Position numbers and translations under genes: made by a program. A model generated the notes under the pieces. The model saw only the letters and a list, made by a program, of their open reading frames with translations, was not told the DNA's origin and made no database searches. From Methanomicrobiales archaeon (GTDB lineage: Archaea > Halobacteriota > Methanomicrobia > Methanomicrobiales > Methanospirillaceae), in assembly GCA_012729535.1 (NCBI GenBank), contig JAAYCY010000020.1, positions 1 through 34,397 on the forward strand: a stretch of 34,397 nt of DNA, given 5' to 3'. This document shows, in pieces, positions 4,567 to 24,942 of the stretch. Position 1 is the first letter of the stretch; each line of letters begins with the position of its first letter.

Positions 4567-7500
4567 CTAATCAGCATATCGCCATTTCCGCTTTGGAACA
4601 TTGATTTCAAACATTGCTCCAATTTCTGTCTGTCCGGTCTCCTGGATAGTGATACCAGTGATTGAAAAAATCTCTCTGCAAAGAGTCAGTCCAAGGCCGG
4701 TATTTTTCCCAAATCCTCTCTCAAAGATCTTTTCTTTCATATCATCAGGAATACCCGTACCATCATCTTCACATATAATCAGGAAATCCTCATCCTTCTG
4801 TAATGCATGGAACCGGATTGTGGTGATTTTTTCTCCATATCGAAGGGCATTCTCAATCAAATTATATACTATCTTAAAAAACATCGGATCAGCATAAATC
4901 TCGAGTTTTTCAGGGAGTTCATTTTTTAGGGTAACAGAATTGAGATTCAGTTGTAATGCAGCTTGATCCACGGTCTGCCTGACATTCTGCCAGGTAGGAA
5001 TATTTATACCGATCTCTTCATATTGTTTGGTAAACTGGATAATTGAATTGATATGGTCTGAAATGGTTATAGCCTTACCTGTCATTTCCTGTAATGAAGA
5101 TCCCTGTACTGACTCATCAAGAATCTGAAGAAAACCCATCAGACCTATTAGTTGATTATTGATATCATGCCTGGTAATATCAGTCAATAGGTTCAGTTTT
5201 TTGTTAGCCTGCCGAAGTGATTCCTCTGCAAGTTTAAGTCTGGTGATATCATGCATGATTCCTTCAATGCCAGCACAATTTCCCTGGTTATCGTAGAAGT
5301 AGTGACAACTGGCAGTAACATAGAGTATGTTGCCATTGCGGTCAGAGAGAGTAAGCGGAAAGTCCTTAATGGTTCCGTTTTCAGTTAAAATTCTTATTAA
5401 CTCCTCTCGCTCAACCAGATCAGCGAATAAAGTATCCCTAATGTTCAGTCCAATCATCTCTTCAGGTGATGAGTACCCTGCAATCAGAGCTCCCATGGGA
5501 CTTATCATAGTAAGATTCCCGTCAAGATCTACCTGGTACAAGAGATCCTGCATATTCTCTATGATAGAACGGTATTTTCTTTCACTTGCCAATAGTTCAT
5601 CTTCAGCTTTTTTCCGTTCAGTAATATCTCTAAAAATTCCTTCTATCCCTTTAAACTCTCCTTGTAAGTCATAGTACTTGTGACTGCTGGTTATGACAGT
5701 AATTGGTGTTCCATCTTTCTTTTTCAGGAGGACTTCAACATTACTAACGGAACCTGTTTTTTCAATTTCTTTTAAAAACTGGTCTCTTACTTCCGGATTA
5801 GAATAAAATGATTGGGCGACATTCTGTCCAATGATCCCAGAGATTGAATCATACCCAAGAACCTTTGATGCAGAAGGACTGAGCTGGATGATGTTACCGC
5901 TTTTATCAGTCCTGTAAAACACGTCCTGGATATTCTCAAAAATTGTCCGGTAATCCATTTCAGCCATAACACGATCGGTAATATCCAGGACTGATGCAAT
6001 ACTCCAGGTAGTCCCAGGGATCATCGATACGTTATTCATACAGAATCTGATGTTTCCAAATTTATCGATAAATCTGAACTCATATACTCTCGGAGCATCA
6101 GAAGGGTCATCACGCCGATCAGCGTGATATTTTTTCATACGCTCAAGGTCTTCTTTGACAATAAATTCGGTCCAGCTCTTTTTATGTTCCAGTTCTTCAA
6201 TCGAAAAACCAGAAAGCCGGGAAAAACCATCATTTGCATACAAAATGGTTGTATCTTGTTCGATTATGATGGTGGCTGTACCGGTATTATCAAATATCGC
6301 ATGGTAGAGGTTTTCTGATTTTTTATATTCATCTTCTGCGTTTTTCCGGTCAGTAATATCTCTGAAAATCCCTTCTATCCCTTTAAACTCTCCTTGTAAG
6401 TCATAGTACTGGTGACTGCTGGTTATGACAGTAATTGGTGTTCCATCTTTCTTTTTCAGGAGGACTTCAACATTACTAACTGACCCTGTTTTTTCAATTT
6501 CTTCTAAAAAATGGTCTCTTACTTCCGGATTAGAATAAAATGATTGGGCTACATTCTGTCCAATGATCCCAGAGATTGAATCATACCCAAGAACCTTTGA
6601 TGCAGAAGGACTGAGCAGGATGATGTTACCGCTTTTATCAGTCCTGTAAAACACGTCCTGGATATTCTCAAAAATTGACCGGTAATCCATTTCAGCCGTA
6701 ACACGTTCGGTAATATCCTGGACTGATGCAATACTCCAGGTAGTCCCAGGAATCATCGATACGTTATTCATACAGAATCTGATGTTTCCAAATTTATTGA
6801 TAAATCTGAACTCATATACTCTCGGAGCATCAGAAGGGTCATCACGCCGGTCAGCATGATATTTTTTCATTCGTTCAAGGTCTTCTTTGACAATAAATTC
6901 GGTCCAGCTCTTTTTATGTTCAAGTTCTTCAATCGTGAAACCAGAAAGCCGGGAAAAACCAGCATTTGCATACAAAATGGTGGTATCTTGTTCGATTATG
7001 ATTGTGGCTGTGCCGGTATTATCAAAAATGGCATGGTAGAGGTTTTCTGATCTTTTCAATTCATCTTCTACATTTTTTCGTTCAGTAATATCGATGAGTA
7101 CGCCATTCCAGATAATGGTTCCATCCGGTCCTTGAACTTCCGGGATAGAACTTCCATAAATCCACCTTACCTTATCATGAAAAGAAGTCCTGAATTCATG
7201 TTTCAATGGTGTAAGAGTCCGGGCAGATTCTGTTATGGATTTGAATAATTCCTCACGGTCTTCAGGGAGAACCACGGAAAAAATTGAAGATGGAGATTCA
7301 ATTGCTTCTTTATCCGGTATTCCGGTTAAATCAATCCAGCTCTTACTGACAAAAGGCATCAGGATTCTCCCATCCGGATGGAGTTCCATTTGGTAGATAG
7401 CACCAGGAATATTCTTTCCCACTGTTTCGAACTTGTGTTGTTCCTCCTTTAATGCCTCTTCTGCATTTTTTGTTTCGGTAATATCCCGGCCAACAAGTTG

Positions 7501-9081
7501 ATACTCGGTAATATGCTGATTTTCATCAAGAATTGCCCGTATGGTCCAGTGGTGCCAGATTTTTTTCCCGCTATTAATATAATTCATCCCTTCCGATTCA
7601 TAGATCGGATTTTCCGGTGATATTGACTGAAATATTTCAGTGTTCTGAAGATTATCATCAAATCGAATAATTTCAAATATCTTTTTCGCCTGAATATCCT
7701 TGTTCTCGGATATTTTTTCATAGAAAGATCTGAATGATTTATTGCTGAAAGTTATGGTCCCGTTTGGAGTAAATCGTGCAATAAGCTCAGTCTGTTCATT
7801 GATAACTGATCGGTACCGCTCTTCACTTTGAAGCAGTGCTTCTTCTGCCTTAACTCTTGCAATAGCCGCCCCAATCTGAGTAGCTATCGTCTCTAATGCA
7901 ACCCGGGAACTTTCAGAAATCTTAATAATACTGTGAGAACTGATATTGAGACAGGCAACTAATTCGTTCGCAGAAAAAATAGGTATGATAGCGATTGCCT
8001 GTAATCCGTCTCTTTTAATTTCTTCATTCTGATTTTTATCGAGGTCATTATAATTAGTAAAAATGGGGGCTCCTTTCCTGATGACTTCAGCGTGTATTGA
8101 ATCAGGCGAAAAACTTGGGACCTGTGCGATAAATTCATCTGAAAGGTTATGTGACAGGGCAAGATCTATTGAACCGGTTTTTTCATCAACAAGGTAAATT
8201 CCACCTGAGTCAAGTTCAGATATTTCAATAGCCTTGGTCAGGCAGAGTTCTAATAACTCATACAACCCAGTAGTTTTCTGGGATATCAGCCCTAATTCAA
8301 GCTGGGTGAGTAATATGTTTTCTGCTCTCTTCTGTTCGGTAATATCTCTTCCAACTGACTGATATTCAAATACTCTTCCCTGTTCATCAAAGAAAGCGTG
8401 TTCTCTCCACCAGTGCCACCTGATACTGCCATCAGGCATGATTATTCTGTGTTCAATATCCCCCATGGGATGGTCTGGTGTGAGCGACTGGAAATGGAGG
8501 AGAAGCCGGGATATGTCTTCCGGATGAATTTTTGGCTTAAAGGATGTTCCAAGAATATCTTCTGTTTTTACATCAAAGTATGTGCAATATGCCTCATTAG
8601 CAAAAACTGTGATTCCATCTGGTGTGAACCGGCAGATAAAATCTCTTTGCGTTTCTACGATATCACGATACTTTCGTTCACTCTCTTCAAGGGCCATATC
8701 AGCCTTTCGTTTATGAAACGCTGTTCTGACTTTATGAGCCAGTTCTGCAAATTGTGATTTAGGTTCCCCTCCCTTCTGCAGGTAAAAATCTGCACCATAA
8801 TTAAGTGCAAGGATGACAACCTCTTCCCTGCCTCTGCCCGTGAATAAAATAAATGGGATCTCTCCATATTGGGATCTCACCTCCTGAAGAAATTCGAGTC
8901 CGTTCTTTTTTGGCATCTCATAATCGGAGATAATTACGTCAAAATGATCATGAGAGAGCAGAGTTAATCCCATATCTGCGGAATCAGCTAGTTCTACCTG
9001 GAAATCAGCAGTTCTTTCCAGAAATAATTTACCGATCTCCAAAAGTGATCTGTCATCATCAACATACAGGATGGAAATCAT
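4567..9081 (-). CDS. Giant hybrid sensor kinase: receiver, GAF, eight PAS, histidine kinase
   Basis: This 1504-residue cytoplasmic protein has no predicted membrane segment. Order: receiver domain (1-120; D8-D10 acidic pocket, phospho-acceptor D53, T81, K103); PAS1 (about 130-250); GAF (about 260-420); PAS2 and PAS3 (about 425-675); PAS4-PAS5 (678-921); PAS6-PAS7 (922-1165); PAS8 (about 1168-1290); dimerisation motif TRHDINNQL with the phosphorylatable H1305; then HATPase_c with NALRYGE, EDDGTGIPDD and FGKNTGLGL. An N-terminal receiver on a kinase suggests it is itself a phosphorelay target that integrates several signals. PAS4-5 and PAS6-7 are near-identical copies of one 244-residue unit. 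No clear Shine-Dalgarno site precedes the ATG, so translation may be leaderless. No output regulator lies next to it. The signal is unknown; PAS ligands such as haem or flavin cannot be read from sequence. Confidence 0.9.
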   Translation of the reverse strand: MISILYVDDDRSLLEIGKLFLERTADFQVELADSADMGLTLLSHDHFDVIISDYEMPKKNGLEFLQEVRSQYGEIPFILFTGRGREEVVILALNYGADFYLQKGGEPKSQFAELAHKVRTAFHKRKADMALEESERKYRDIVETQRDFICRFTPDGITVFANEAYCTYFDVKTEDILGTSFKPKIHPEDISRLLLHFQSLTPDHPMGDIEHRIIMPDGSIRWHWWREHAFFDEQGRVFEYQSVGRDITEQKRAENILLTQLELGLISQKTTGLYELLELCLTKAIEISELDSGGIYLVDEKTGSIDLALSHNLSDEFIAQVPSFSPDSIHAEVIRKGAPIFTNYNDLDKNQNEEIKRDGLQAIAIIPIFSANELVACLNISSHSIIKISESSRVALETIATQIGAAIARVKAEEALLQSEERYRSVINEQTELIARFTPNGTITFSNKSFRSFYEKISENKDIQAKKIFEIIRFDDNLQNTEIFQSISPENPIYESEGMNYINSGKKIWHHWTIRAILDENQHITEYQLVGRDITETKNAEEALKEEQHKFETVGKNIPGAIYQMELHPDGRILMPFVSKSWIDLTGIPDKEAIESPSSIFSVVLPEDREELFKSITESARTLTPLKHEFRTSFHDKVRWIYGSSIPEVQGPDGTIIWNGVLIDITERKNVEDELKRSENLYHAIFDNTGTATIIIEQDTTILYANAGFSRLSGFTIEELEHKKSWTEFIVKEDLERMKKYHADRRDDPSDAPRVYEFRFINKFGNIRFCMNNVSMIPGTTWSIASVQDITERVTAEMDYRSIFENIQDVFYRTDKSGNIILLSPSASKVLGYDSISGIIGQNVAQSFYSNPEVRDHFLEEIEKTGSVSNVEVLLKKKDGTPITVITSSHQYYDLQGEFKGIEGIFRDITDRKNAEDEYKKSENLYHAIFDNTGTATIIIEQDTTILYANDGFSRLSGFSIEELEHKKSWTEFIVKEDLERMKKYHADRRDDPSDAPRVYEFRFIDKFGNIRFCMNNVSMIPGTTWSIASVLDITDRVMAEMDYRTIFENIQDVFYRTDKSGNIIQLSPSASKVLGYDSISGIIGQNVAQSFYSNPEVRDQFLKEIEKTGSVSNVEVLLKKKDGTPITVITSSHKYYDLQGEFKGIEGIFRDITERKKAEDELLASERKYRSIIENMQDLLYQVDLDGNLTMISPMGALIAGYSSPEEMIGLNIRDTLFADLVEREELIRILTENGTIKDFPLTLSDRNGNILYVTASCHYFYDNQGNCAGIEGIMHDITRLKLAEESLRQANKKLNLLTDITRHDINNQLIGLMGFLQILDESVQGSSLQEMTGKAITISDHINSIIQFTKQYEEIGINIPTWQNVRQTVDQAALQLNLNSVTLKNELPEKLEIYADPMFFKIVYNLIENALRYGEKITTIRFHALQKDEDFLIICEDDGTGIPDDMKEKIFERGFGKNTGLGLTLCREIFSITGITIQETGQTEIGAMFEINVPKRKWRYAD
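5587..6318 (-). repeat. 732-bp in-frame tandem repeat, copy B (PAS6-PAS7)
   Basis: This is the second copy (in reading direction) of a 244-codon unit encoding two PAS domains, residues 922-1165 of the giant kinase. It starts at SENLYHAIFDN and ends before ASERKYRS. By eye it differs from copy A at about 16 of 244 residues, several of them clustered in the last few codons. Confidence 0.9.
6319..7050 (-). repeat. 732-bp in-frame tandem repeat, copy A (PAS4-PAS5)
   Basis: This is the first copy (in reading direction) of the 244-codon unit, residues 678-921. Matching markers sit exactly 732 bases apart, for example attctgtcca at 5821 and 6553. The length is a multiple of three, so the frame is kept. 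Confidence 0.9.
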
Positions 9082-16910: not shown

Positions 16911-17330
16911 ATGAAGTTTTATATAGGAAGTCTTCTTGGAGATAAAGCAGAGAAGCTTTTCGAGAGTATCGTTCTTGACGGACTCCCGATTGACGTGAAT
17001 AAAAAAGTAAATGAAGGAATTTTTGATATCGGGATTGTTTCCCTGCCCTTCTCCCGGGCATCCAGGGACCAGAATGTTACCCTCTGCTGGCCAGAAGAGG
17101 GTGCTTTTGCCCTCCCACAAGTTCTGATTCAGAAAAACGGGGCCAGCGAGGAAGCACTGAGGGTTAGTAATTATCTCCTCTCGGAGGATGCCCAGAAATT
17201 CATCTCCGATGTAGGCGTTATGATTCCGGTAAATCCCGTTGTTCCTCTGCCCCGTGAAGTAGAAGAGAACAACATGTCATTATACTGGAAAGGATGGGAC
17301 TGGTTTATATCCGGGATAAATACAGTATAA
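16911..17330 (+). pseudogene. C-terminal fragment of a periplasmic-binding-protein-like gene
   Basis: The 139-residue frame matches only the C-terminal part of the binding-protein-like product at 21974-22891. Shared features are FDIGI/YDIGI, P-EG-x-x-LPQV, K-x-GA-E, LL-x-ED-Q and a final GW. The N-terminal lobe, about 170 residues in the paralogue, is absent; the frame begins 48 bases after the GH13 stop with no ribosome site. I infer a truncated gene left by a deletion whose breakpoint is near 16905. A functional single-lobe protein is possible but less likely. A T-run terminator follows the stop. Confidence 0.6.
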
Positions 17331-17451: not shown

Positions 17452-18273
17452 ATGTCTCAGTCACCGGATAGTAAAAACTCCAGTAGTTCAAAGATTACCT
17501 GGAAATGCACGGTATGCGGTTTTCTTTTTCAGGGAGAAAAACCCCCGAAAGGATGTCCTCATTGTCATAGTCCGACAGGTGAATTCATCCCGGCACATAC
17601 TGACCCATTAACCTATCCAAAAGAGGAATTTGACGTACTTCTCATAAACGGGAGTTCCCACCGGGCGGGAAATACGGGAATAATGACCGATATCGCAGAA
17701 GAAGTCCTAAAGGAAAGAAATATTTCGTACCGAAGGTTTAATCTGAATGAATATACCATCGATCATTGCTGGTGCTGCTATGCGGTCAGGGCACAGTCCT
17801 GCGATTATCCATGTCGCAATAAGGACGATGATATGCATGTATTTCATCAGATGCTGGCAAACACACGGGCAGTTATTATCGCTTCACCCATCAACTGGAA
17901 CAGCATGTCAGCCAGGCTGAAGACGTTTCTTGACCGGACAACCTGTATGCAAAACCTCTACCATCTGCAAAAACCCGGACTGACACATGGGAAGATAGTA
18001 GGAATCCTGGTCTGTGGTCATGAAGATGGGGGCATTAAGACTGCCATGGACATTTTTCTAAATTTTCAACAGTTGGGATACATCCTTGCTCCGTTTGGTA
18101 TTGCGTACCGGACCCATGGTGCCGAGTATACCAGTAATGTGGATCGGGAGTTTTTTACTAACGATGAGTTATTCCGTACATATACCCGGGGTGTTGTAAG
18201 CAATGTTGTGGAAATGATGAACCTGAATGTTGAGGGGATACTAAAAGAGAAAATCATCCCGGTATCTGAATAA
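17452..18273 (+). CDS. Rubredoxin-like / flavodoxin-fold oxidoreductase fusion
   Basis: The 273-residue cytoplasmic redox protein begins with a Ser-rich leader and a rubredoxin or zinc-ribbon knuckle with four cysteines, C19-x2-C22 and C35-x2-C38 (WKCTVCGF, GCPHCHSP). From about residue 58 it has a flavodoxin-like FMN-binding domain of the NADPH-dependent FMN reductase/iron-sulfur flavoprotein type (LLINGSSHRAGNTG phosphate-binding loop; ASPINWNSMSARLK). A Cys cluster, CWCCYAVRAQSCDYPC, sits where iron-sulfur flavoproteins ligate a cluster. The fused rubredoxin could pass electrons directly to FMN, as in oxygen or peroxide detoxification of anaerobes. The reaction partner is unknown. It is monocistronic, with its own upstream TATA-like element and a following T-rich terminator. 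Confidence 0.82.
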   Translation: MSQSPDSKNSSSSKITWKCTVCGFLFQGEKPPKGCPHCHSPTGEFIPAHTDPLTYPKEEFDVLLINGSSHRAGNTGIMTDIAEEVLKERNISYRRFNLNEYTIDHCWCCYAVRAQSCDYPCRNKDDDMHVFHQMLANTRAVIIASPINWNSMSARLKTFLDRTTCMQNLYHLQKPGLTHGKIVGILVCGHEDGGIKTAMDIFLNFQQLGYILAPFGIAYRTHGAEYTSNVDREFFTNDELFRTYTRGVVSNVVEMMNLNVEGILKEKIIPVSE

Positions 18274-18369: not shown

Positions 18370-18600
18370 TCATTCATCTACCTTTTCATTTTCACCAGTA
18401 TTTTCTTCATCTTCAAAGCAACACAGTTCTTCAATGGTTACATTGAAGAGTTTCGCCATTTTGTATGCCACATCAATCGAAGGATTGTATTTTCCTCCTT
18501 CAATCGAGTTTACCGTCTTCCTGGTGACCGATATCTTCCGGGCTAACTCTTCCTGAGTCAGGTTATGAATTGCTCGGTAAATTCGTATATTATTCTTCAT
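18370..18600 (-). CDS. XRE-family HTH regulator, copy 1
   Basis: This 76-residue DNA-binding protein is nearly all helix-turn-helix of the Cro/C1 (XRE) type: IRIYRAIHNLTQEELARKI, then SVTRKTVNSIEGGKYNPS as recognition and wing region, and VAYKMAKLFNVTIEEL. The C-terminus is short and acidic. Its ATG overlaps the TGA of the upstream membrane protein by one base (TGATG), so the two are translationally coupled. In methanogens this pair (DUF2178 membrane protein plus XRE protein) is recurrent. I infer autoregulation through the dyads at 19184-19210. It is nearly identical to the copy at 20761-20991 apart from the C-terminal tail, including a C for F change in EELCCF. Confidence 0.88.
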   Translation of the reverse strand: MKNNIRIYRAIHNLTQEELARKISVTRKTVNSIEGGKYNPSIDVAYKMAKLFNVTIEELCCFEDEENTGENEKVDE

Positions 18601-19181
18601 CAGGTTCCAGGTTCCATTTTTTTATAATAGTAGAATGAAAATGCAACAAAAAGACCTGCAATGAGAATTGTCATAATACCAAATGCAAGACCCATGAACA
18701 TCGGTCCATCTCTTACCCGGTACCCAAGCCCGAATAACCGTTCAAGAGAGAACAGTTCATCTCCTGAAATATAGTTCATATCCTGGATAAACACATTGTC
18801 ATCATACACTGGATTACCATGTGGGTAAAAAACCATGAACCCGATTCTGGCAGATCCATTATCATATATGCCAATTCCAGAACCAAGACCACTATTGCCG
18901 AAATAAAACATAAACGTGGTTGCAAACAATATCGCACCAAGCACTATAATAATTTCAAGAGTCCGGATCGCCGCTTTTCCACTGATTGCTTCAGATAAAT
19001 CATCAGTCATTACCTCATTAATCCGCCGGTGAAATACAAATGCCCCGATTATCGCAAAAATCACCACAAAAGTGATAATAAGCAGATTTCCCATTGCAAT
19101 CCCAAGACCAAGACCCAGGATAATACTCAAACAGATTCCGGCCAGACACAGGTAATATGTCATTCTGTTGATCCCTGCCAT
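18600..19181 (-). CDS. DUF2178-type membrane protein, copy 1
   Basis: About 193 residues with four likely membrane helices: two at the N-terminus (YYLCLAGICLSIILGLGLGI and the next hydrophobic run), one near the middle (IIIVLGAILFATTFMFYFG) and one near the C-terminus (GLAFGIMTILIAGLFVAF). The cytoplasmic loop RRINEVMTDDLSEAISGKAA is the family hallmark. An extracytoplasmic loop of about 60 residues before the last helix differs most from copy 2. I chose the ATG at 19181 (MAGINR); a GTG at 19190 and an ATG at 19154 (MTYYL) are alternatives. The function is unknown; the partner regulator suggests a membrane-linked sensing or stress role. Confidence 0.78.
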   Translation of the reverse strand: MAGINRMTYYLCLAGICLSIILGLGLGIAMGNLLIITFVVIFAIIGAFVFHRRINEVMTDDLSEAISGKAAIRTLEIIIVLGAILFATTFMFYFGNSGLGSGIGIYDNGSARIGFMVFYPHGNPVYDDNVFIQDMNYISGDELFSLERLFGLGYRVRDGPMFMGLAFGIMTILIAGLFVAFSFYYYKKMEPGT

Positions 19182-19183
19182 AT

Positions 19184-19210
19184 GTAACACATGTTACTCT
19201 TTTAGAGTAA
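19184..19210. promoter_or_regulatory. Paired dyads upstream of DUF2178-XRE copy 1
   Basis: Two overlapping inverted repeats abut the start codon: GTAACACATGTTAC (19184-19197, one mismatched pair) and TTACTC-TTTTA-GAGTAA (19194-19210, perfect 6-bp arms). The same arrangement is preserved in copy 2, so it is probably the operator of the XRE protein. Confidence 0.6.
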
Positions 19211-19343
19211 ATAGTTTCTCATTACACAGGTAATCTTTCTCAAACCAGTGGAATCCTATCATACATCAGAATACCATTCAAAGAGAAAAAATGAAACCCC
19301 ATAATCAAAGGAAAAAAAAGAATATCGCCAACGTCCGGATATT

Positions 19344-19412
19344 GGTTTTTACGTAAAACCATATATTACTAATATATAGTTTTAGAACAATCCATATAAT
19401 ACCAATATATGG
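19344..19412 (+). promoter_or_regulatory. Promoter with three inverted repeats before the ATPase gene
   Basis: In order: GGTTTT-TACGT-AAAACC (19344-19360, with the perfect core TTTTACGTAAAA), CCATATATTACTAATATATAG (19359-19379, one mismatched pair) and CCATATA-ATACCAA-TATATGG (19392-19412, perfect arms) running across the ATG at 19409. The last two are alike and start 33 bases apart, about three helical turns. The second probably also serves as the TATA region. No ribosome site is seen, so the transcript is probably leaderless or nearly so. Confidence 0.55.
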
Positions 19413-20686
19413 ATCCATTATCACATCACAACCTTGAAACCGTCCTGATAAACCAGGTTCAGCGGTTTAAAAATTCCAACCCGGGGATACAAAGGAGAAT
19501 TGACTTTTCACAGTATGTGAACCACCCACAAATAATTGTAATTACCGGGGTTCGAAGATGTGGGAAATCCACCCTGCTCAGACAACTTGCTGACTTTTTT
19601 CCATCGTATTTGTATGTTAATCTGGATGATGAAAGATTTGCAGGGAGCGGGATTCATCATCTAACTGAAATAATGACAATATTTGAAGAGAATAATCCCG
19701 GAGTGCGAACCATTTTTCTTGACGAGATTCAAAACATTCCAGAATGGGAACGTTTTGTAAGGAGAATACATGATGATGGATATCAGATTTTTCTTACCGG
19801 ATCGAATGCGCAACTCCTGAGTTCTGAACTTGGAACCCGCCTTACCGGTAGGTATATTACAATATCACTCTGGCCATTCAGATTTGATGAATATTGTAAT
19901 TGTGTGGGAATATCAGAATTTCCACGGGGAACACAGGCTGAAGCAGAAGTGCAACTATTATTTGTAAAATACCTGGAAGAAGGGGGATTCCCCGGTTTTC
20001 TGCAATACCAGGACCCGGAGATATTACATCAGATCTTTGAAGACATTATCTATCGGGACATAATTGTTCGGCATGGAATTCGTGAAATTCTTCCGTTCCG
20101 TGAATTGTGCAGGTACATCTATTCAAATCTGACCCGCGAGGCATCATATCAATCACTGGCAAAATCTATCGGGGTAAAAAATGCGATGACTATCCGATCA
20201 TGGGTTGGATATCTTCAGGATTCATTTCTCATATCTGAATGTTTTAAGTTTGATTATTCACTCCGACGTCAGCATGCATACCACAAAAAAATGTATGGGA
20301 TTGATACCGGCCTTCGGAACACTGTATCATTCAGGTTTTCAGGCGATACCGGAATGTTATTTGAACAGGCTGTCTGGATGGAATATAAAAGTCGTGGGTA
20401 CGAACTGTTCTGGTTTAAAGCAGAAGGTGAATGCGATTTCTTAATTTTTGACCAGGGAAAAATAACTAATTGTATTCAGGCATGTACTGAGCTCACTATG
20501 GAAAACCAGGAAAGAGAGATATCCGGATTGGTGGAGGCCATGAAAGAAACACGGTGTAATGATGGAGTAATACTTACACTCAGGCAATATCAGGACATGG
20601 TTATTGAGGGAATACCGATAAAAATACGCCCGTTTTGGAATGTAGTACTTGCTGACAGCCCATTAATCCGGAAGGCAAAGTGGTAA
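19409..20686 (+). CDS. AAA-family ATPase with DUF4143 C-terminal domain
   Basis: This 425-residue cytoplasmic protein has an AAA_14 ATPase domain (about 25-200) with Walker A GVRRCGKST (47-55), Walker B TIFLDEIQNI and sensor ILTGSNAQLL-type sequence FLTGSNAQLLSSELG. The DUF4143 domain follows (about 230-400). Its motif G-ELFWFKAEGECDFLI resembles a restriction-endonuclease-like fold with D and D/E-x-K-type positions. Such ATPases are numerous in archaea and bacteria, often horizontally moved, with no settled function; mobile-element maintenance or defence have been suggested. It is transcribed opposite to the flanking repeated cassettes and has its own dyad-rich promoter, which suggests tight repression, perhaps by an unlinked regulator or by its XRE neighbours. 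Confidence 0.85.
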   Translation: MDPLSHHNLETVLINQVQRFKNSNPGIQRRIDFSQYVNHPQIIVITGVRRCGKSTLLRQLADFFPSYLYVNLDDERFAGSGIHHLTEIMTIFEENNPGVRTIFLDEIQNIPEWERFVRRIHDDGYQIFLTGSNAQLLSSELGTRLTGRYITISLWPFRFDEYCNCVGISEFPRGTQAEAEVQLLFVKYLEEGGFPGFLQYQDPEILHQIFEDIIYRDIIVRHGIREILPFRELCRYIYSNLTREASYQSLAKSIGVKNAMTIRSWVGYLQDSFLISECFKFDYSLRRQHAYHKKMYGIDTGLRNTVSFRFSGDTGMLFEQAVWMEYKSRGYELFWFKAEGECDFLIFDQGKITNCIQACTELTMENQEREISGLVEAMKETRCNDGVILTLRQYQDMVIEGIPIKIRPFWNVVLADSPLIRKAKW

Positions 20687-20760
20687 TCCAACGACAGGAG
20701 ACATAATTCCCGAAGCCGGAGCAGCCAGTATGATTTACGCTCTGCCTCTCAAATGAGGAT

Positions 20761-20991
20761 TTATGGAAGAGATTCATCTTCTTCATTGTTATTTTCTTCA
20801 TCTTCAAAACAAAACAGTTCTTCAATAGTCACATTGAAGAGTTTTGCCATTTTATACGCTACATCAATCGAAGGATTATATTTTCCTCCTTCAATTGAAT
20901 TTACCGTCTTCCTGGTGACCGATATCTTCCGGGCTAATTCTTCCTGTGTCAGATTATGAATTGCCCGGTAAATTCGAATATTATTCTTCAT
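20761..20991 (-). CDS. XRE-family HTH regulator, copy 2
   Basis: This 76-residue HTH protein is identical to copy 1 (18370-18600) over about the first 59 residues, including the whole recognition region SVTRKTVNSIEGGKYNPS. The two should therefore bind the same DNA sites and cross-regulate. It differs only in the acidic tail (DEENNNEEDESLP). The ATG overlaps the upstream TGA by one base (TGATG), as in copy 1. Confidence 0.88.
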   Translation of the reverse strand: MKNNIRIYRAIHNLTQEELARKISVTRKTVNSIEGGKYNPSIDVAYKMAKLFNVTIEELFCFEDEENNNEEDESLP

Positions 20992-21575
20992 CAGGTTTCA
21001 GGATCCATTTTTTTATTATAATAGTATGAAAATGCTGCAAAAAGACCCGCAGTGAGAATGGTCATTATCCCGAATGCAAGTCCCATGAACATCGGTCCAT
21101 CTCTCACCCGGTATCCTAGCCCGAATAATCGTTCAAGTGAGAATAATTCATCTCCGGATATATTATTCATCTCCTGGATGAACACACGTTCATCATACAC
21201 CGGATGAAAATCCGGATACCAGACCGAAAAATGAATCGTGGCCGATCCATTATCAAATGTGTGAATCCCGGAACCGAGCCCTCCCCCGGTGCCCCAATAA
21301 AGCATCATAGTACTGGCAAACAATATCGCACCAAGCACCGTAAGAATTTCAAGAGTCCTTATCGCCGCTTTCCCGCTGATTGCTTCAGATAAATCATCGG
21401 TCATGACTTCATTAATCCGCCGATGAAATACATATGCTCCGATCATTGCAATAATCACCACAAGAGTAATTACAAGCAGACTTCCCATTGCAATCCCAAG
21501 CCCTAAACCCAGAATGATTCCCAAACAGATTCCGGCCAGACACAGGTAATATGTCATTCTGTTGATCCCTGCCAT
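20991..21575 (-). CDS. DUF2178-type membrane protein, copy 2
   Basis: About 194 residues, four likely membrane helices, with the conserved loop RRINEVMTDDLSEAISGKAA. It aligns with copy 1 throughout. The outer loop before the last helix is the least conserved part, and it carries one extra glycine-rich codon (GTGGGLGSGIH). The ATG at 21575 (MAGINR) is preferred; an ATG at 21584 lies within the operator palindrome. Function as for copy 1: unknown, probably linked to the coupled XRE regulator. Confidence 0.78.
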   Translation of the reverse strand: MAGINRMTYYLCLAGICLGIILGLGLGIAMGSLLVITLVVIIAMIGAYVFHRRINEVMTDDLSEAISGKAAIRTLEILTVLGAILFASTMMLYWGTGGGLGSGIHTFDNGSATIHFSVWYPDFHPVYDERVFIQEMNNISGDELFSLERLFGLGYRVRDGPMFMGLAFGIMTILTAGLFAAFSYYYNKKMDPET

Positions 21576-21577
21576 AT

Positions 21578-21604
21578 GTAACATATGTTACTCTTTTAGA
21601 GTAA
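21578..21604. promoter_or_regulatory. Paired dyads upstream of DUF2178-XRE copy 2
   Basis: GTAACATATGTTAC (21578-21591) is a perfect 14-bp palindrome, and TTACTC-TTTTA-GAGTAA (21588-21604) a perfect 6-bp inverted repeat. The overlap matches copy 1 base for base except at the palindrome centre. Confidence 0.6.
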
Positions 21605-21674
21605 ATAGTTTCCCACGTGTGATGGAGACTATCTTCTGGATGTGTTATAACCGATGAACCCATCTGAAAAAAGA

Positions 21675-21973: not shown

Positions 21974-22891
21974 TTACTTACCTGGATATCGATCGAATTC
22001 AGAAACTTCTTCGATATACGATTCCCACCCCTGCCAATTCTCCAACCTGCCATTATATGCAATCATATCATGTATTGGGATGCCGCTCAGAGCTGGCCAG
22101 CACCCCTGCTTGCTCAGGTAATTTTGCATATCTTCATGCATCAACAGGTCGGCAATAATTTTCAGCTTCTCGTCAGCACCTTTTTTCCATACAATAACCT
22201 GAGGCAAGAGAACAAATCCTTCTTTTGGAGGATTGATTGCAATTCCTCTTCCTTCCGCCATCATTGCAAATGAAAAATTCGTAATACCAATGTCATATTC
22301 TCCTGATATAACTGATTTGATAACGCTCGGCGGACTGCCTTCATATACTGCTCGTTCCTCAAATTCTGGAAACTTATCTGGAAATTCATGCTTGAGATAG
22401 GCTCCCACCGCTCTGCTTAAAGGCTTATCCCGGTTAGGTAAAATGACTTTAAATTTTTTATTGAAAAGATCACTCCATGAGTGCTTCAATTCATTCTCCT
22501 GTATTTTTTTGGTATTATAAAACATAACCATAGGGACTACAAAAAGCGGATAGAACAGTCCATGAGGATCGGTCAGCATTTGTAACTCTTCTCTTACGGG
22601 ATGTTCACTAGCAAACTGGCCCGCAACATTAGAAAACAAACCACTCTCAACTCTGTTACCTAAAGATGCAAACTCCGGAACATGAGTAATCATCAGATCA
22701 GGAAGAATTCCTTTTTTAATCGATGAACCAAGCCACTCTTCACTGCAATTCGAACAGTATTCAATATCATGAGGCGTATACAGGGAAATTTTATCGCCGA
22801 TCCTTTTTTCCAGATCCGGAAGATTATTTTTTAAATAATCCAGCATGTGACCTCGTAAATTTACCGGGGTGTGAATCATAATACGTATCAT
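21974..22891 (-). CDS. Binding-protein-like (PBP type 2 fold) protein without signal peptide
   Basis: About 305 residues resembling the substrate-binding proteins of Fe(III)-type ABC importers: TPVNLRGHML near the start, LFVVPMVMFYNTKKI in the hinge region, LPNRDKPLSRAVGAYL, GEYDIGITNFSFA and a C-terminal LPQVIVWKKGADEKL. Unlike true importer components it has no signal peptide or lipobox, so it should stay in the cytoplasm. A CSNCSEEW motif near residue 46 could bind a metal or cluster. I prefer the ATG at 22891 (MIRIMIH), which has GAGG 11 bases upstream; the in-frame ATG at 22939 has no ribosome site. It follows the DUF1858 ATPase and the GTPase on the same strand. A truncated paralogue lies at 16911-17330. 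The ligand is unknown; a metal complex or cofactor is the inference. Confidence 0.7.
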   Translation of the reverse strand: MIRIMIHTPVNLRGHMLDYLKNNLPDLEKRIGDKISLYTPHDIEYCSNCSEEWLGSSIKKGILPDLMITHVPEFASLGNRVESGLFSNVAGQFASEHPVREELQMLTDPHGLFYPLFVVPMVMFYNTKKIQENELKHSWSDLFNKKFKVILPNRDKPLSRAVGAYLKHEFPDKFPEFEERAVYEGSPPSVIKSVISGEYDIGITNFSFAMMAEGRGIAINPPKEGFVLLPQVIVWKKGADEKLKIIADLLMHEDMQNYLSKQGCWPALSGIPIHDMIAYNGRLENWQGWESYIEEVSEFDRYPGK

Positions 22892-23012
22892 ACTAACATG
22901 TTCCTCGTTTTTCTGTCTTTTTTCAAATCGAATTTTCATTAAGCGTCTTTTAAAACCGCAACTCAGGTTTTAGGAAGTCATCTTTCAAAGCGAAAATTTT
23001 TAGCTTTTACAA

Positions 23013-24032
23013 TTAACATAACAATTCATCTCCGATCTCAAGTAGTTGACCATTCCGAAGAGATTCCCGATACTTCATCAAAATATTGTCAATTTCAGTG
23101 AGCCGGAGCAACCCTTTTTTTTCATTTGATGTAGTGTTAATAACCTTTTTAATTCCCCCATTTTTGACAACAATTCGTTTATTCCCCATCAATGCAAGGA
23201 GGGGATCATGTGTCGCGATAAGGACAATCTTATTTTGTCCGATAAGCAACTCCAAAGCTTTTTTTCTGTTAATACCAGCATTTTCAATCTCATCAATCAA
23301 AACAATAGGAGATGTACTTAAAAAGGCAGTATCGGCCACCATCAATGCTCTGGATTGTCCACCGCTTAAGGATGTAAGCGGAGTATTCATGTCAAATCTT
23401 TCACCGGAAAGCTGATTTGCATGAAATACGATCTCCTGTGTTTTTATTTCAGAATTATCGATCAATCTGCTTTGAGCATGAAGTGTTATAAATTCTCCAA
23501 CACTAACATCCATGACAAAATTCATATTCTGAGATAATTGAGCCACCAGTTTGTGTTCAACCGAAAAACGCCAATCTCTTGGTGGAACTGACCCATTTAT
23601 CAAGATTTGTCTACGAGTGGGTGTATCCCTTTGGGCCATCCATTCGATATCAGCGAGAAGTCTGCTTTTGCCAGACCCGGTAGGACCCACAATACAGATT
23701 ATTTCTCCGATGCAAATCTTCAAATCAATCTCTTCTGGTTTTTCAGATTTATTTCTTCCACCCAAAATGGTAATATCACGGATATTGAAAGCAGGTTCTT
23801 CTCTGATAGCCTTCATCCGGTCCATAAACGAACGGAATCGCTTTAGTAAATCCTCCTGATTCAGGCCCATATCTTCCAGAAATACGTAACCAAGTGAGTT
23901 GATATAGTCTCTTATCGAGATTTTTACATCATCAATTGGCAGACCATTAATGTTGAAAAACTCTTTGGAATAGGGATATTTATCTAACAAGTCTTTTATC
24001 GTCAATTCTTCCAATAAATCAGATTCATTCAT
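23013..24032 (-). CDS. DUF1858 / ABC-type ATPase fusion without a permease
   Basis: This 339-residue soluble protein has a DUF1858-like N-terminal domain (about 5-70; TIKDLLDKYPYSKEFFNING) and an ABC ATPase domain (about 80-310). All ABC motifs are seen: Walker A GPTGSGKS, signature LSGGQSRALMV, Walker B VLIDEIENAG with the catalytic glutamate, and the switch histidine in ATHDP. No membrane protein that could be its permease is encoded nearby, so it is more like soluble ABC proteins than an importer subunit. It starts 13 bases after the GTPase stop, with AGAGGA before the ATG, and is clearly cotranscribed. I infer an energy-using step in an intracellular delivery or remodelling process. Confidence 0.78.
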   Translation of the reverse strand: MNESDLLEELTIKDLLDKYPYSKEFFNINGLPIDDVKISIRDYINSLGYVFLEDMGLNQEDLLKRFRSFMDRMKAIREEPAFNIRDITILGGRNKSEKPEEIDLKICIGEIICIVGPTGSGKSRLLADIEWMAQRDTPTRRQILINGSVPPRDWRFSVEHKLVAQLSQNMNFVMDVSVGEFITLHAQSRLIDNSEIKTQEIVFHANQLSGERFDMNTPLTSLSGGQSRALMVADTAFLSTSPIVLIDEIENAGINRKKALELLIGQNKIVLIATHDPLLALMGNKRIVVKNGGIKKVINTTSNEKKGLLRLTEIDNILMKYRESLRNGQLLEIGDELLC

Positions 24033-24045
24033 TAAATATCCTCTT

Positions 24046-24732
24046 TTAATCCAATTTCATCTTTCTTACATTTCCCATCTGTTTATTAAGCCCAATCACC
24101 GTTTCACCAAGACAATATGAACAAAGAGCGGATGGCATGCTTATCCTCAGTTCCTTTCCGACCAATGTTTCAATCTCTGTGGCTGTCTCTATGAGTGTCG
24201 CTAACTCACCAGCTCCCTGGCCTGTAAGTCCATTCACATGCAAAATAATCCCATCTGGATTGGCCTGTCTGATTTTTAATGCAAAGATTTCTCTTTCTGC
24301 CTGTGAAACAATATCTCCCTTGGTGATAACAACAATATCCGCCATTTTGAGCATTGGACCGATTTTTTTGGGCGTATTTATCCCCATCAGGTTATCAATG
24401 ACACATACGGCAGTACAACCTTTGATATGGGGTGAACAGCGATTGCACAGGCCTGCACTTTCACTTATTAAAATATCATAGGACTGCCCGATAGCCCAAT
24501 TAAGACAATCATCGATGTTACTTACAAAAAAGTGATCCGGACACATGCTCCCGGATAGACCAACTCTACTGTCAATATTCTGTGCAGCATACAGGTTATC
24601 GTCATCGGTTACTAAGCAGTCAAATTTCAAGACTCCGATTTTTAAATGCCTGTCTTTTAATTCTCCTATAGATTTTATAATAACCGATGTTTTCCCAGAT
24701 GAAGGCGGTCCGGAAACCGTAATTAATTTCAT
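24046..24732 (-). CDS. HypB/UreG/CooC-like P-loop NTPase with Cys motifs
   Basis: A 228-residue SIMIBI-class GTPase-like protein: P-loop SGPPSSGKTS (residues 7-16), SESAGLCNRC in the switch region, hydrophobic strand CTAVCVIDNL and TKGD in place of NKxD for base recognition. It carries two Cys pairs, CNRC and CSYC, and further single cysteines, suiting it to bind nickel, zinc or an Fe-S cluster. Relatives (HypB, UreG, CooC) insert metals into hydrogenase, urease or CO dehydrogenase. No hydrogenase or CODH gene is nearby, so the client is unknown. The start at 24732 rather than 24762 is decided by GGGAGG 7 bases upstream. It heads the three-gene unit. Confidence 0.78.
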   Translation of the reverse strand: MKLITVSGPPSSGKTSVIIKSIGELKDRHLKIGVLKFDCLVTDDDNLYAAQNIDSRVGLSGSMCPDHFFVSNIDDCLNWAIGQSYDILISESAGLCNRCSPHIKGCTAVCVIDNLMGINTPKKIGPMLKMADIVVITKGDIVSQAEREIFALKIRQANPDGIILHVNGLTGQGAGELATLIETATEIETLVGKELRISMPSALCSYCLGETVIGLNKQMGNVRKMKLD

Positions 24733-24739
24733 GATTTTT

Positions 24740-24745
24740 CCTCCC
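24740..24745 (-). promoter_or_regulatory. Ribosome-binding site deciding the GTPase start
   Basis: On the minus strand GGGAGG lies 7 bases before the ATG at 24732 (MKLITVSG). A TATA-like TTTATTAAAAATG lies at about 24816-24828, suggesting that the three-gene unit has its own promoter, separate from the upstream binding-protein gene. Confidence 0.55.
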
Positions 24746-24942
24746 GAATCATAGTAATTCAAATCTCCTGATTATCAGGGACATCTTTCATCATCGATAT
24801 ACTAGACCTTACTACATTTTTAATAAACAGGAAAAACTTAGTCAAACTGAAGAAGAACATGAACTTTTTTATCATTCATTTTCTGATAACGTACCCAGAA
24901 AAAATCCAAAAAAGGTGTCAGAGATCTTCTGATACCTCTCCG

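Follow-up and report, generated by a model that had tools for sequence, protein, structure and literature searches.

Two non-sister XRE-DUF2178 cassettes flanking an ATPase gene in a Methanospirillum genome: putative membrane sensor-repressor units

Genes and repeats at the locus

The window, i.e., the whole stretch of 34,397 nucleotides that was analyzed, is contig C6 of a 3.09-Mb genome in 86 contigs, which belongs to the same genus as Methanospirillum stamsii. Genomes of Methanospirillum are referred to as G001-G011, M. stamsii being G010, and a scan of genome contigs gave M. stamsii as the sole match. Two cassettes, each with genes for a predicted DUF2178 membrane protein and a small XRE regulator, flank an ATPase gene, and the following features were recognized.

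18370-18600, minus strand: cassette 1 XRE regulator, 76 amino acids (open reading frame; PF01381 HTH_3, E 3e-16)
18600-19181, minus strand: cassette 1 DUF2178 predicted membrane protein, 193 amino acids from the ATG at 19181 (PF09946, E 3e-10)
19182-19211, minus strand: operator-like double dyad of cassette 1, TTTACTCTAAAAGAGTAACATGTGTTACAT, conserved at six cassettes (five genomes) and absent from all other sites in the 12 genomes of the genus
19365-19411, plus strand: paired dyad of the ATPase gene, ATTACTAATAWA...AWTRSYAATATATG, ending at the ATPase ATG
19409-20686, plus strand: AAA_14-DUF4143 ATPase, 425 amino acids (AAA_14, E 6e-38; DUF4143, E 3e-17)
20714-20775, plus strand: scrap resembling the 5' end of feoB, with about 80% identity to the feoB start region of G001
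20761-20991, minus strand: cassette 2 XRE regulator, 76 amino acids (open reading frame; PF01381, E 3e-16)
20991-21575, minus strand: cassette 2 DUF2178 predicted membrane protein, 194 amino acids from the ATG at 21575 (PF09946, E 6e-10)
21576-21605, minus strand: operator-like double dyad of cassette 2 (same pattern search and window match count as for cassette 1)
About 18399-19222 and about 20790-21615, direct orientation: the two repeat copies (ungapped seeds start at 18386 and 20777)

An earlier note on this DNA described two direct copies of about 820 bp with the same dyads and coupled genes, and blastn bore this out, with 701 identities (85%) and 3 gap positions over 820 alignment columns; the extent of the repeat and its ungapped seeds exclude chance similarity. 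On the minus strand of each copy, the operator-like double dyad is followed by the DUF2178 gene and, directly downstream with a 1-base overlap, the XRE gene, the left one of which ends at 18370, beyond the interval 18400-21612 of the earlier note. Both DUF2178 proteins score above the curated Pfam cut-off for PF09946 (40.5 and 39.7 vs 22.8 bits). Translation of the two proteins probably begins at the ATG codons at 19181 and 21575, directly after the dyads, because the upstream starts of these reading frames fall within the dyad, and the ATG at 19181 is common to close orthologues of the cassette 1 protein. The ATPase gene between the cassettes is divergent from cassette 1, across a gap of 0.2 kb, and convergent with cassette 2.

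As the earlier note also held, the DNA-binding regions of the two regulators are identical (residues 1-59, with differences confined to the tail), and this part of the XRE protein is strongly constrained, with a dN/dS of 0.017. The outer loops of the membrane proteins have indeed diverged more than the rest, dN being 0.18 there vs 0.06 for helices 1-3. Since dS is also raised in the outer loops and dN/dS is about 0.2 throughout the protein, positive selection on the loop is not indicated and was rejected as an explanation. Synonymous divergence between the two cassettes is about 0.5, comparable to the between-species level. A viral origin was likewise discarded, with no match in phage records or viral contigs and only general regulator matches of XRE in PHROGs, as was a defense annotation of the cassette, for which PADLOC gave nothing for DUF2178 and only general HTH matches for XRE.

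Several other genes of the window were recorded. The solute-binding protein encoded at 16911-17330 (139 amino acids) looks N-terminally truncated relative to its 284-amino acid counterpart in M. stamsii (L045, 10519-11373). A trio of genes for a solute-binding protein, an ABC-type ATPase, and a small P-loop protein occurs twice in M. stamsii, and the window keeps one full trio (window 21974-24762; L045 10519-12842). A multi-PAS histidine kinase of 1504 amino acids, encoded at 4567-9081, contains two internal near-identical blocks.

Histories of the ATPase and the two cassettes

The ATPase matches the PADLOC profile PDC-S01 over residues 27-414 (E 1e-101, 338 bits), and its AlphaFold model has an AAA+ fold (pLDDT 89). 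It is a candidate member of this candidate defense family, in which an AAA ATPase is fused to a PD-(D/E)XK-like DUF4143 domain. The (D/E)xK motif of PDC-S01 reads IQAC in the window ATPase, and IQVC or IQVS in those paralogues where it is readable. The family is abundant in archaea, and most candidates of this kind still await validation (PMC12988326). Purifying selection acts on the window gene (dN/dS 0.09-0.12), and the same genome carries several paralogues. Its own upstream paired dyad is common to cassette-free orthologues and to paralogues of about 50% identity; in the 12 genus genomes, the pattern has six sites, all at starts of this ATPase family, with no control match, and the cassette operator was not found in front of the ATPase in a search of the same genomes.

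Orthologues with 86-88% DNA identity occur without a cassette in three genomes: intact in G003, where the gene adjoins one for an EamA-type transporter; in G009 with the same surroundings but running into a contig end; and in G006 split between two contigs. A group II intron-type reverse transcriptase gene was noted near the G003 ATPase locus (L070, 1480-3042). Two other genomes hold remnants of the same orthologue beside a single cassette, G001 the 3' part only and M. stamsii a 5' stub only. No DUF2178 or XRE gene was in reach at any of 43 sampled ATPase loci, and ATPase sequence was near 2 of 56 DUF2178 loci, these being the remnants in G001 and M. stamsii.

These data bear on the proposal that the sandwich is a composite island of three components, with the cassette pair controlling or guarding the ATPase, perhaps in the manner of a regulated defense unit. 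The divergent arrangement of cassette 1 and the ATPase across a short gap, the match to a candidate defense family, and the ATPase remnants beside the cassette in two genomes are what such an island might leave. However, the ATPase stands without a cassette in three genomes, is broken where a cassette adjoins it in G001 and M. stamsii, and carries its own conserved dyad and no cassette operator, and we regard the island as very unlikely. The comparative evidence shows an ATPase that, as far as genome sequences can tell, is independent of the cassettes, and the three parts probably do not form one system.

The earlier note offered, as the other possibility, that a duplication had captured the ATPase. 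By position, cassette 2 corresponds to the single cassette that G001 and M. stamsii each carry, and in all three the feoB-like scrap lies on the ATPase side of the cassette; no other copy of this scrap was found in the same genome, and cassette 1 has no such flank. With G004 as the root, the tree places cassette 1 outside the group of cassette 2, G001, and M. stamsii. A clade of cassettes 1 and 2 was rejected at an AU p of 0.002-0.003 (0.0024; 0.0034 without the outgroup), and it has 6 supporting sites, whereas the alternatives have 22 and 23. These 6 shared sites lie dispersed, with no run of conversion, and gene conversion between the copies was therefore dismissed. A recent local duplication of one cassette, with recombination between the copies still going on, would account for one gene bracketed by two direct repeats, but it is hardly credible for copies that are not sisters, that differ at synonymous sites as species do and show no conversion run, and whose flanks are not duplicated (none was found around cassette 1). 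In addition, cassette 2 together with ATPase sequence occurs without a second cassette in two genomes.

Because cassette 1 lies outside the other three and its clade with cassette 2 is rejected, it may have been transferred from an unsampled relative or may be an old paralogue lost elsewhere, and the data fit either history. M. stamsii lacks, at the same site, the window segment 17332-19272, which holds a flavodoxin gene (17452-18273) and cassette 1. That a Methanospirillum ancestor already had both cassettes and the other sampled genomes have since lost cassette 1, with no transfer involved, is a plausible though not the favored history: it agrees with the outside position of cassette 1, but several losses are required and the gap in M. 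stamsii fits insertion as well as loss. This history concerns descent only and is compatible with the mechanism of an autorepressor and a membrane sensor discussed below.

The sandwich thus appears to be a juxtaposition in one genome, because the copies are not sisters, the ATPase is cassette-free elsewhere, cassettes are absent at 43 ATPase loci, and the ATPase has its own dyad. It looks like chance adjacency of three parts joined by separate events. The data come close to what the earlier note gave as the sign of chance adjacency: the ATPase stands away from cassettes in three genomes, although a strain that has both cassettes but lacks the ATPase was not encountered.

The XRE-DUF2178 pair and its putative operator

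The XRE-DUF2178 pair is conserved and widespread in archaea. DUF2178 is present in 97 of 119 genomes of the class, and it also occurs in Methanosarcina acetivorans and Haloferax volcanii. At every locus examined across the class, an XRE gene lies no more than 1.5 kb away; among the nearest relatives, it is adjacent at 26 of 27 loci, the remaining one being at a contig end. An extra DUF2178 gene elsewhere in the own genome (L033, contig C79) has a frame that stops about 165 bases before its XRE partner and is possibly frameshifted. The window cassettes share family (PF09946) and gene order with the DUF2178-XRE pairs of methanogens, and their subfamily differs from most of these in a longer outer loop and an operator of its own. 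In the literature searched, no paper naming DUF2178 was found.

In both copies, the DUF2178 start is immediately preceded by the dyads TTTACTCTAAAAGAGTAA and GTAACATRTGTTAC, the first of which has two matches in the window vs 0.05 expected. A 30-bp pattern with both dyads, searched with up to three mismatches in the 12 genus genomes, gave six matches (two in the own genome and one each in G001, G002, G004, and G010) and no control matches. All six precede a cassette of this XRE subfamily and none lies elsewhere in these genomes; at the G002 locus the contig ends inside the cassette, and the XRE gene is therefore not visible there. Invariant across the six loci are TATTTACTC, AAAAGAGT, and a closing TACAT, in contrast to the sequence further upstream, and TTTACTCYAAAAGAGT persists even in the cassette of G004, where the DUF2178 protein has just 44% identity. 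In the own genome, the two cassettes are the only places with the tighter inner dyad GTAACATNTGTTAC. There is hence good evidence that the putative operator is dedicated to the cassettes and common to both copies.

Some XRE regulators are activators, not repressors. At this locus, the operator overlaps a TATA-like TATTTA and ends at the start codon, which suggests that XRE acts as a repressor there. Self- and cross-regulation are indicated since the operator, among the 12 genus genomes, stands only in front of these cassettes, and the two XRE proteins should act on both promoters because their DNA-binding regions and operators match. The cross-regulation anticipated in the earlier note is therefore likely.

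DUF2178 was modeled with four helices and an outer three-strand beta element (residues 99-133 in cassette 2; mean pLDDT 80, pTM 0.57). Among 27 sequences, conserved residues cluster in an inner segment after helix 2 (D60, I66, A71, T74) and at the C-terminus (F182, Y185, Y186, K189; YYxRK), and the outer segment, which links helices 3 and 4, is highly variable in both sequence and length. No solved relative was found by sequence search; Foldseek with the model gave no match under 0.001, and the best VIA-align Z of 6.2 is within background for such models. The nearest solved relatives of the XRE protein are 9k3w, on which a literature search found nothing, and CylR2 (phmmer E 2e-11, residues 3-64).

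In Enterococcus faecalis, the gene for the small multi-helix membrane protein CylR1 likewise adjoins that for CylR2, a small XRE-type repressor and the nearest named solved relative of the window regulator, and induction depends on CylR1, with no phosphorelay (PMC3709268). CylR1 has three predicted helices vs four in the DUF2178 model, and the likeness is one of gene layout and the CylR2 match only. CylR1/CylR2 also controls a divergent biosynthetic operon, whereas nothing like that operon lies at the window locus, where the operator stands only before the cassettes; the ATPase gene that diverges from cassette 1 carries a dyad of its own, and this gene is missing at that position in other genomes. 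SdpI/SdpR of Bacillus subtilis also combines an autorepressor and a polytopic membrane partner in one operon, but SdpR is an ArsR-type and not an XRE regulator, the window regulator is of the HTH_3/XRE type, and no SdpC-like ligand gene was recognized at the window locus. In that system, the membrane protein sequesters the repressor (PMC1626106), which makes it a second case of an autorepressor released by a membrane protein.

By analogy with these two systems, an autorepressor released by a membrane sensor would be the best-supported mechanism. The small XRE protein, presumably as a dimer, would bind the dyads overlapping the presumed TATA box and start site, on both promoters, and keep its own operon low. 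DUF2178, predicted to be a four-helix membrane protein whose outer loop is rich in beta structure, may relieve repression once the loop senses a signal, with XRE contacted or trapped probably via the inner segment DERxxxIxxKAAxRTLE and the C-terminal YYxRKY. We consider it reasonably probable that two separately derived XRE-DUF2178 operons flank an unrelated ATPase and that each is such an autoregulated sensor-repressor unit.

The pair might instead be a toxin-antitoxin-like addiction module, with a toxic membrane protein and XRE as antitoxin and autorepressor. The small two-gene operon with an overlap, the autoregulation pattern of XRE, and the patchy occurrence of this subfamily agree with this, and a toxin-antitoxin survey set aside conserved Xre-membrane protein pairs, flagging them as possible unusual systems (PMC2701414). 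However, the membrane-protein gene comes first, the class carries the DUF2178 family almost universally, unlike typical addiction modules, and a conserved inner motif with a variable outer loop suits a receptor. Type II toxins are soluble, whereas the XRE partner here is a predicted four-helix membrane protein, and that 2009 survey was aware of no type II system that included a membrane component (PMC2701414). An addiction module is accordingly improbable.

Meaning of the pair

As a genomic arrangement, the locus is ordinary: two members of a regulatory pair that is common but unstudied adjoin an ATPase that is likewise common and unstudied. Its importance lies in the XRE-DUF2178 pair, not in the sandwich. 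The six-locus footprint gives a precise candidate operator for a direct binding test, and a genome with two copies offers a natural test of cross-regulation. We tentatively suggest that the pair may be a class-wide archaeal membrane-to-promoter signaling unit that works without a phosphorelay; in this genome, two sensors with differing outer loops would share one common operator, and either signal would set both.
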